From an uncultured Flavobacteriaceae bacterium (GTDB taxonomy: Bacteria > Bacteroidota > Bacteroidia > Flavobacteriales > Flavobacteriaceae), in assembly GCA_905480425.1 (NCBI GenBank), contig CAJQQG010000012.1:1-64000 (forward strand): a stretch of 64,000 nt of DNA, read 5' to 3'. Position numbers and translations under genes: made by a program. The notes under the pieces are model-generated. The model was not told where the DNA came from. It saw only the letters and a list, made by a program, of their open reading frames with translations, and did no database searches. Shown one piece after another: positions 19,597 to 21,661 of this stretch. The first letter of the stretch is position 1; each line of letters opens with the position of its first letter.

Positions 19597-20786
19597 AATT
19601 TTTTATTGATATTTTGATATATTTTTGTGGCATTAGCAGTGAGCTTAATAAATCCTTTTGCTTCATCTGAAGTCCATCCTTTATTCATTTCTCCATAGCT
19701 TCCAAACTCTGCATGCATCAGATCATTTGGAGATGAAATACCAAGAAGCTCAAAGCGATAAGGGTGAAGCTTAATAGAAACGGTTCCACTTACTTGTTTT
19801 TGGCTACTTTCCATAAATGCCTCCATGTCTCGCATTACAGGATCTAAATAATGTCCTTCATGTAGTTGCATTCCATAGAAATTGGCTAATTGTTCTTTTT
19901 GATATAGTTGCCATTTTGTTAAAGTGTGCTTTTCTAAAAGGTGGTGTGCCTTAATAATAATTATGGAAGCAGCGGCTTCAAAACCTACTCTTCCTTTTAT
20001 TCCTATTATGGTGTCGCCAACATGAATATCTCTTCCAATAGCAAACTTTTTTGCATGCTCTTGAAGTTTTTGAATCAATTCCACTGGAGACCCTAATGTT
20101 TTGTTCACTTTGATGAGCTCTCCTTTTTTGAAACTAAGAGTTAAAAATTCGGGAGTTTCTGTTTTAAGCTGACTTGGGTATGCTGCATCTGGTAATGGAG
20201 AATCTGAGGCAAGAGTTTCTGCTCCACCTACGCTTGTTCCCCATAAACCTTGGTTTATAGAATATTTCGCTTTTTCCCAAGGAAGATTAATACCTTGAGT
20301 TTTTAAATATTTTATTTCATCTTCTCTAGATAGTTGGAGATCTCTAATTAAGGTGATGATTTTTATTTCAGGGGCTAATACTTGAAAAATCATATCAAAA
20401 CGTACCTGATCATTTCCTGCACCTGTACTACCATGAGCAATATACTTTGCTCCAATTTTTTTGGCATAATTAATAACTTCTATAGCCTGAATAATTCGTT
20501 CTGAACTAACAGAAAGGGGGTAATTATTATTTCGTAAAACATTACCGTAAATAAGGAATTTTACAATTTTGTTATAAAAAGAATCTAAAGCATCAATATT
20601 TTTGTACAAATGTGCACCCATTTGATATGCCTTTCCTTGAATGATATCAATTTCATTTTGAGAAAAACCACCGGTATTAATACTGACAGCATGAACTTCA
20701 AAATCATCTTGAGAAAGTTTTTGAAGTGAATATGAGGTATCTAATCCTCCACTATAGGCCAAAACTAATTTAGATTTATTTATCAT
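19593..20786 (-). CDS. argG: Argininosuccinate synthase
   Basis: KLVLAYSGGLDTSYSLQKL, IAHGSTGAGNDQVRFD motifs. Confidence 0.96.
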   Translation of the reverse strand: MINKSKLVLAYSGGLDTSYSLQKLSQDDFEVHAVSINTGGFSQNEIDIIQGKAYQMGAHLYKNIDALDSFYNKIVKFLIYGNVLRNNNYPLSVSSERIIQAIEVINYAKKIGAKYIAHGSTGAGNDQVRFDMIFQVLAPEIKIITLIRDLQLSREDEIKYLKTQGINLPWEKAKYSINQGLWGTSVGGAETLASDSPLPDAAYPSQLKTETPEFLTLSFKKGELIKVNKTLGSPVELIQKLQEHAKKFAIGRDIHVGDTIIGIKGRVGFEAAASIIIIKAHHLLEKHTLTKWQLYQKEQLANFYGMQLHEGHYLDPVMRDMEAFMESSQKQVSGTVSIKLHPYRFELLGISSPNDLMHAEFGSYGEMNKGWTSDEAKGFIKLTANATKIYQNINKKL

Positions 20787-21381
20787 TTTTATTTTTTAGT
20801 GAAATTGCTGTTTTAATTCTTTGTACTATTTTTTTATTAATAGGTATATTTTTCATTTCTTTTTTTGGATCAAATAACATCCCAGTACATAAACACATTT
20901 GGCGTTCTGTCCTGGTTAAAATATCATAATTTTTACAAGTTTGACAGCCTTTCCAAAATTCAGGATCATCTGTAAGTTCTGAAAAGTGAACTGGTTTATA
21001 ACCTAGTTCATAATTTATTTTCATAACAGGCATACCTGTGGTAATTCCAAAAATTTTAGCCTTCGGATATTTTTTTAAAGAAAGTTTAAATACTTCTCTT
21101 TTAATTTTTTTAGCAAGACCTTTTCCGCGTTGCTTAGGAGTAACAATTAATCCGGAATGAGCTACATATTTTCCATGCCCCCAGACCTCTATGTAACAAA
21201 AACCAGCAAATGAATTATTTTCAATCGCTATAACTGCATTGCCATTTTTAATTTTTGAAGCAATATATTCAGGAGTACGTCTGGCGATTCCAGTGCCTCT
21301 ATTTTTTGCAGAATCATCAATGCATGCACTGATATTTTTAGCATAAGATATGTGTTCCGCAGTAGCGCGTAATATTTTCAT
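20776..21381 (-). CDS. GNAT family N-acyltransferase with Cys-rich C-terminus; candidate first enzyme of arginine pathway
   Basis: VTPKQRGKGLAKKIKREVF acyl-CoA motif; C-terminal GCQTCKNYDILTRTERQMCLCTGMLFDP; first gene of arg operon, overlaps argG. Confidence 0.85.
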   Translation of the reverse strand: MKILRATAEHISYAKNISACIDDSAKNRGTGIARRTPEYIASKIKNGNAVIAIENNSFAGFCYIEVWGHGKYVAHSGLIVTPKQRGKGLAKKIKREVFKLSLKKYPKAKIFGITTGMPVMKINYELGYKPVHFSELTDDPEFWKGCQTCKNYDILTRTERQMCLCTGMLFDPKKEMKNIPINKKIVQRIKTAISLKNKNDK

Positions 21382-21461
21382 TTTGTGTATTAATAAATAA
21401 GAAATTTGTTTAGTTCGAGAAGAGAGAAGGGCACACCATACTCCATAAATAATCTACACCC

Positions 21462-21479
21462 CTAGGGGCGACGAAACAT
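21462..21479 (-). CDS. Putative arginine leader mini-ORF MFRRP*
   Basis: ATG TTT CGT CGC CCC TAG on minus strand, 98 nt or less upstream of the first arg gene and immediately downstream of the promoter; two adjacent Arg codons. Confidence 0.45.
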   Translation of the reverse strand: MFRRP

Positions 21480-21488
21480 CGGGCGCAA

Positions 21489-21523
21489 CAAAAGTAATGA
21501 AGTGCCTGGAAAAATATACAAAA
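21489..21523 (-). promoter_or_regulatory. Bacteroidetes-type promoter of the arginine operon
   Basis: Minus strand TTTTG (21523-21519) - N22 - TACTTTTG (21496-21489); fits TTG-N17-23-TAnnTTTG consensus. Confidence 0.65.
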
Positions 21524-21661
21524 GTGGTGTTTTGAACATAACATTGCAAATATCACTAATTTTTATTAGATATCAAAAAATATATTTAATAGTACATATT
21601 TTTAGGATCTATATTATTGGATTACGAATGTTTATCTTTGTGCTTTATAAAACTATAACAA

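Follow-up and report, generated by a model that had tools for sequence, protein, structure and literature searches.

The locus analysed here raises the question of how bacteria that mostly lack ArgR adjust arginine synthesis to the supply of arginine. It lies in a stretch of 64,000 nucleotides from a marine Flavobacteriaceae bacterium (the window), which carries an arg operon with the gene order GNAT-argG-argC-proC-argD-argF'-argB-argE-argH, where argF' stands for N-acetylornithine carbamoyltransferase and argE for an ArgE/DapE-type deacylase. Among 35 genomes of the host's order, a search for ArgR (PF01316) gave a match in only one, while the same search detected it in 9 of 14 control genomes, a Bacteroides among them. 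Furthermore, neither the window nor nine further loci contained an Rfam leader match above the gathering score, and the matches elsewhere were tRNAs only.

Extent and coding signal of the leader ORF

A preliminary description of the region upstream of this operon had reported, on the minus strand and 80–100 nt upstream of the first arg gene, the arrangement TACTTTTG ttgcgcccg ATG TTT CGT CGC CCC TAG GGGTG, and a palindrome, CCCCTAGGGG, enclosing the stop codon. Both are present in the arg leader as described; however, the ORF had been read too short, the promoter named is not conserved, and the second hairpin at 21444–21423 was overlooked. As the ORF begins upstream of 21523, its 5' part falls outside the interval then considered (21382–21523). 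The following features are relevant here:

20776..21381, minus strand: first gene of the arg operon, a GNAT-fold acetyltransferase (Pfam Acetyltransf_1 above and Acetyltransf_7 below cut-off)
21560–21381, minus strand: leader of the arg operon
21547..21554, minus strand: likely −7 box of the promoter, GATATTTG (TACATTTG in the family), 7 nt ahead of ORF1, from the conserved box
21462..21539, minus strand: ORF1, leader peptide MFKTPLLYIFPGTSLLLLRPMFRRP followed by a stop, 25 codons including three Arg codons, from the open frame and Arg density
21462..21479, minus strand: mini-ORF MFRRP-stop, the last five codons of ORF1, whose own ATG is not conserved

Two of the three Arg codons of ORF1 in the window are adjacent and stand directly before Pro-stop. 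The five codons MFRRP, previously regarded as a unit, continue a frame that opens with an ATG further upstream, at 21539, and form the C-terminal end of the 25-codon ORF. First-gene homologues were fetched from genus members and their upstream DNA was lined up, revealing that the upstream ATG keeps a constant distance from the hairpins in nearly all of them. Conservation, by which the preliminary description had proposed to judge the mini-ORF, was not found for its ATG, which among the loci listed is shared by the window and its nearest relative L002 (first gene product 99% identical) and by no other; the Arg codons, however, are kept across Flavobacteriaceae before the same GNAT-argG operon, together with the in-frame stop and the CCCC/GGGG hairpin. 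Peptides read in the same frame include MSEHYQHTNLSSNATFPLRRPRRRPFGV in a locus of the same genus (L009), and MKGQRHISNTLSNLAPVRPFSRRRRP (L031) and MKGQNYITTTISTTAQVRPFSPRRRRP (L034) in other genera, each followed by a stop. Conservation does not extend to the body of the peptide and is limited to its Arg-rich end, which ranges from RRP to RRRRP before the stop (typically RRRRP), with RRPxGV in the window's genus.

This coding signal was quantified in 57 non-redundant leaders (<82% identical in core). Counting 20 codons upstream from the anchor, no stop interrupts the ORF1 frame in 56/57 leaders, compared with 18/57 for each other frame. Arg accounts for 220 of 513 positions (43%) in the last nine codons, versus 32 (6%) and 17 (3%) in the other frames; the frame was anchored on a CGY codon, making one position Arg by construction, and 163 of 456 positions are Arg when it is left out. 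CGC and CGT dominate among these codons. An ORF with at least three Arg within its last seven codons is found in 44/57 arg leaders and in 0/23 his/ilv upstream regions of the same family, and the whole 64 kb contain only 10 such short ORFs on both strands, ORF1 included; the element is therefore not a chance occurrence. The family comparison thereby supports what had been proposed in outline, i.e., a leader ORF with clustered Arg codons that ends in a hairpin ahead of the arg operon.

A TTTG box precedes the ORF1 start by 4–9 nt, mostly 7, in 31/57 leaders, and TAnnTTTG is given in a study on F. psychrophilum as the −7 consensus of flavobacterial sigma-A (PMC9723704). From this spacing, transcription should start at the ATG or a few nt before it, and translation may therefore begin almost at the RNA 5' end. 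Nearly leaderless translation, as suggested earlier, is plausible for ORF1, the ATG of which follows the −7-type box by 7 nt, but the promoter and the ATG originally named are not supported: the sequence TACTTTTG is not conserved and reads CACTTCCG in L002.

Hairpins P2 and P3

Downstream of the Arg codons, the leader comprises two hairpins and a spacer:

21457..21470, minus strand: hairpin P2, CGCCC-CTAG-GGGTG, from a terminator-like scan of the window and the P2 arms in 57 leaders
21423..21444, minus strand: hairpin P3, GGAGTA-T-GG-TGTGC-CC-TTCTCT, from a covariance model
21382..21422, minus strand: spacer between P3 and the first gene, from base composition

In the window, the 5' arm of P2 consists of the last Arg codon and the Pro codon, and the stop codon lies in the loop. 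The family form is CGCCC-GTAA-GGGTG, so that CCC CTAG GGG in the window corresponds to CCC GTAA GGG in most genera; the ORF1 stop is located in the P2 loop in most genera and just past P2 in most of the window's genus. P2 varies little among the 57 leaders, with the compensated forms CGCAC/GTGCG, CGCC/GGCG, and CGCCC/GGGCG, and it is the sole terminator-like hairpin of the region in the window (1 found versus 0.1 expected in shuffles). Support for a further hairpin before the Arg codons, P1, was weak (mean z −0.98). Masking a ribosome on the Arg codons abolished P2 in folding (0.69 to 0.01). No conserved alternative or antiterminator pairing partner emerged from ribosome-masked folding of the leaders, and the formerly envisaged switch between CGCCC-CUAG-GGGUG and other local pairings is not supported.

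As the CGCCC of the P2 5' arm is constrained as RNA and encodes Arg-Pro by itself, one could regard the leader as a conserved structured RNA whose Arg-rich ORF is a mere by-product of a GC-rich hairpin sequence with CGY repeats. We consider this highly improbable: Arg codons are found as far as eight codons 5' of the hairpin arm, 56/57 leaders have this frame open versus 18/57 for the other frames, which are not Arg-rich, and some genera have a second Arg-rich ORF at a separate place.

P3 follows about 15–20 nt downstream of P2. In general, it consists of six stem pairs, one or two bulged bases, GG/CC, and a loop of five bases; the window has one U-U mismatch in the six-pair stem, one bulged base, and two G-C pairs below the five-base loop. 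In a MAFFT alignment, a register shift of one base hid P3 from RNAalifold; the alignment used here was obtained by aligning one register and extending it by a covariance model. The tip GG[UC]GNG[UC]CC (GGUGNGYCC) is near-invariant, being present in 126 of 159 fetched loci with near-duplicates included; as later alignments were collected by the loop motif, this invariance is partly by construction, which does not apply to the stem. In the stem, 96.4% of cells are paired, 6 of 8 pairs show changes on both sides, and the covariation score was reached by 0 of 500 shuffles. On the tree of the first gene product, about 3–4 switches between A-U and G-C, with changes on both sides, were counted for each of the three middle pairs. 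The covariance model recovers P3 in the window's genome with an E-value of 1.7e-4. P3 corresponds to no Rfam family.

The P3 tip is the main unexplained feature of the leader. Pairing between the P3 loop and P2 was rejected, as the loop sequence is unaltered in loci whose P2 has become CGCAC/GTGCG, and a near-invariant loop that is not explained by P2 pairing suggests a further partner. With a small hairpin of this kind occurring about once per genome, such a partner can be sought directly. It is conceivable, though unlikely, that P3 is the true sensor, either as an aptamer for arginine or a pathway intermediate or as the site of a dedicated regulatory protein, and that the Arg-rich ORF merely adds a second, reinforcing input. 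The tip hardly varies among about 120 loci, has no second copy in the genome, and occurs before one operon only, and the bulge lies two pairs below the conserved loop, the usual layout for recognition by a protein. However, P3 comprises only ~22 nt, which is small for a metabolite aptamer, and the independently conserved Arg codons would be superfluous; moreover, P3 is missing from Flavobacterium and from other families of the order, several of them with Arg-rich leader ORFs. We assign a similarly low probability to a two-input sensor in which the Arg codons would report tRNA-Arg charging and the P3 tip would bind arginine or a dedicated protein, the two jointly replacing ArgR across Flavobacteriaceae.

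Short ORFs also start at the base of P3. Where the bulge has two bases, a start codon at the base often opens a four-codon ORF, M/L-E-x-R-UGA, with its stop in the P3 loop (L040, L044, L047, L051, L055, L103, L124, L131, L133, L137, and L159). ORF2 (MEYGxPFSLL...), read from the P3 base, looks conserved within the genus and was discarded, as it is not maintained across the family.

Proposed mechanism and output of the leader

We consider it likely that the GNAT-argG operon is controlled by a leader-peptide attenuator based on arginine codons, with a putative arg-specific RNA output module, and ORF1, P2, and P3 together are probably how Flavobacteriaceae sense arginine shortage. Both the clustered cognate codons in an upstream short ORF with a coding signal and the compensated hairpins P2 and P3 are features of such attenuators. 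When charged tRNA-Arg is scarce, a ribosome would stall on the Arg run, mask the P2 5' arm, and stay on the RNA, and the arg operon would be expressed. When arginine is plentiful, the ribosome would finish at the stop and depart, P2 would close, and expression would be lowered. The sensor half of this model is well supported, the output half is not.

Several further observations bear on the attenuator reading. The his leaders of the same genomes demonstrate the family's use of leader peptides and count in its favor, as do the occurrence of two Arg leader peptides in tandem at about a dozen loci, the near-absence of ArgR, the single P3 copy ahead of the arg operon, and the C-rich, G-poor spacer. 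The lack of a conserved alternative pairing under a simulated stalled ribosome counts against it, as do the weak support for P1 and the P3 loop that P2 pairing leaves unexplained. The same applies to L006 and L023 in the window's genus, in which, by our reading of the sequences, frame and hairpins persist but no more than one or two Arg codons are present; these loci are possibly losing arginine sensing.

An intrinsic terminator between ORF1 and the first gene is absent in nearly all 57 leaders, in a search with his leaders as positive control: only 9/57 arg leaders reach −6 kcal/mol with a T-rich tail, whereas the hairpin and U-tract terminators of the his leaders in the same family are strong (−15 to −19 kcal/mol). 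This agrees with the original remark that a clear poly-U terminator is missing and that the attenuator would be a non-textbook one. Judged from its sequence, the arg leader would work like an amino-acid attenuator while lacking the intrinsic terminator of the classical transcriptional subtype. That P2 itself is a weak intrinsic terminator, acting with the U-rich spacer and disabled when a ribosome stalls at the Arg codons, appears doubtful: P2 and its T-rich tail are terminator-like in the window and some relatives, but the few leaders that reach −6 kcal/mol compare poorly with his, and no role would be left for P3.

Since no terminator is found, we consider Rho-type premature termination the most likely output, although we rate it at somewhat less than an even chance. 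Its site would be the stretch following P3, which is rich in C and poor in G, and P3 would set the decision. The spacer between P3 and the gene contains 18.7% C and 5.3% G in the 57 leaders, versus 11.6% C and 14.0% G before 69 other start codons, a composition compatible with a possible Rho-loading segment. Translational control of the first gene ranks next and is distinctly less probable. Here, translation of ORF1 or stalling on it would alter ribosome loading or reinitiation at the first gene, as for rbfL of S. aureus. Such control would fit the missing terminator, the start-type codon (ATG/TTG) at the P3 base in 45/57 leaders, and the end of ORF2 at the ATG of the first gene in some loci. 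However, ORF2 is not conserved and stops after four codons (MELR) in many loci and after two in L008, and the predicted accessibility of the first-gene start is unchanged between simulated ribosome positions.

Other amino-acid operons of the family have leaders of their own. His-rich leader peptides (e.g., MKFIQSHHHHFHICSQAK before its stop) followed by strong intrinsic terminators are located upstream of hisG in L180, L181, L184, L186, L189, and L190, and on sequence grounds we class these flavobacterial loci as cases of classical his attenuation. Such peptides are readable in some of the his leaders. Upstream of ilvD (L196, L198, L202, and L203), terminator hairpins follow short ORFs rich in Ile/Val/Leu, and these are likely ilv attenuators. 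Several ilv leaders carry terminators, unlike the stretch between ORF1 and the first arg gene.

Relation to known leaders and distribution

Like trp-, his-, and ilv-type attenuators, the arg leader places a short ORF rich in the pathway's own amino acid and overlapping hairpins before a biosynthetic operon; unlike them, it has no intrinsic terminator, the stop lies inside or just after the first hairpin, and the loop of the second hairpin is near-invariant. The fungal arginine attenuator peptide (AAP) is likewise an arginine-related upstream ORF of an arginine-pathway gene. AAP senses arginine through its own nascent chain, whereas the signal in the arg leader is an Arg-codon run at the very end; a conserved internal arrest sequence of the AAP type was not found in the arg leader peptides, the body of which is not conserved.

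In Salmonella, orf34 upstream of speF senses arginine through consecutive Arg codons, with an involvement of Rho and a dependence on the position of the stop codon relative to a downstream hairpin in a 516-nt leader (PMC6386406). As a precedent for an Arg-codon leader coupled to Rho, it counts in favor of the attenuator reading. However, orf34 controls ornithine decarboxylase and not arginine synthesis, and the arg leader peptides do not belong to speF orf34/DUF2618: the conserved HIRRT core is absent and the genes differ, too. The S. aureus leader peptide rbfL also senses arginine limitation by Arg codons, i.e., rare AGA/AGG codons, and blocks the rbf ribosome-binding site, with repression at low arginine (PMC13009471); the arg leader, by contrast, uses common CGC/CGT codons and precedes a biosynthetic operon. 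For F. psychrophilum, the main text of a study on structured 5' regions reports strong clues that amino-acid operons are subject to attenuation by upstream leader peptides, and contains no arg leader (PMC9723704), and the Flavobacterium-type loci that we checked differ from the arg leader by the lack of P3. Within the open-licence literature, we found no described bacterial leader peptide for an arginine biosynthetic operon, and none with P3. If our reading is true, arginine biosynthesis joins the pathways under leader-peptide control, and the control of arginine synthesis in a large family mostly without ArgR is explained. Maribacter, Zobellia, and Robiginitalea are cultivated relatives suited to testing.

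A covariance model of P3 alone gave matches in 154 of 251 Flavobacteriaceae genomes and 127 of 203 genera sampled. All strong matches that were read in the DNA lie directly upstream of GNAT-argG, and P3 is in effect single-copy per genome (24 genomes, stricter model). Among eight secondary or out-of-family matches, seven fall in unrelated sequence and one (L161) belongs to another copy of the arg operon. In a class-wide sample, only weak matches were obtained outside Flavobacteriaceae, the two best of which fall in unrelated sequence.

P3 is absent from L053, L056, L058, and L140–L142, which we take to be Flavobacterium loci. Three of these (L053, L058, and L141) have a different conserved short ORF, ending in ...NRPxTSPEVRML, about 230–260 nt upstream of the first gene. 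In some other families of the order, Arg-rich short ORFs precede the same operon in the absence of P3 (L147, L148 with MNKTTKHINTLAPRFFRRPLWVLN, L150, L151, and L152 with MDSTLRLRRSRRRLRA), which suggests that the leader peptide predates the P3 module. Within Flavobacteriaceae, a second Arg-rich leader ORF (e.g., MKTIKSKIRTFFPAMRFRMRRR or MHTSNKTNQISLRRRRPMRRR, each before a stop) is located 165–190 nt upstream of P3 in L043, L044, L047, L050, L051, L052, L057, L059, L116, L137, L156, and L157. In the tandem loci tested, ORF1 lacks a TTTG box of its own, which suggests that both Arg leader peptides are encoded in tandem on a single transcript.
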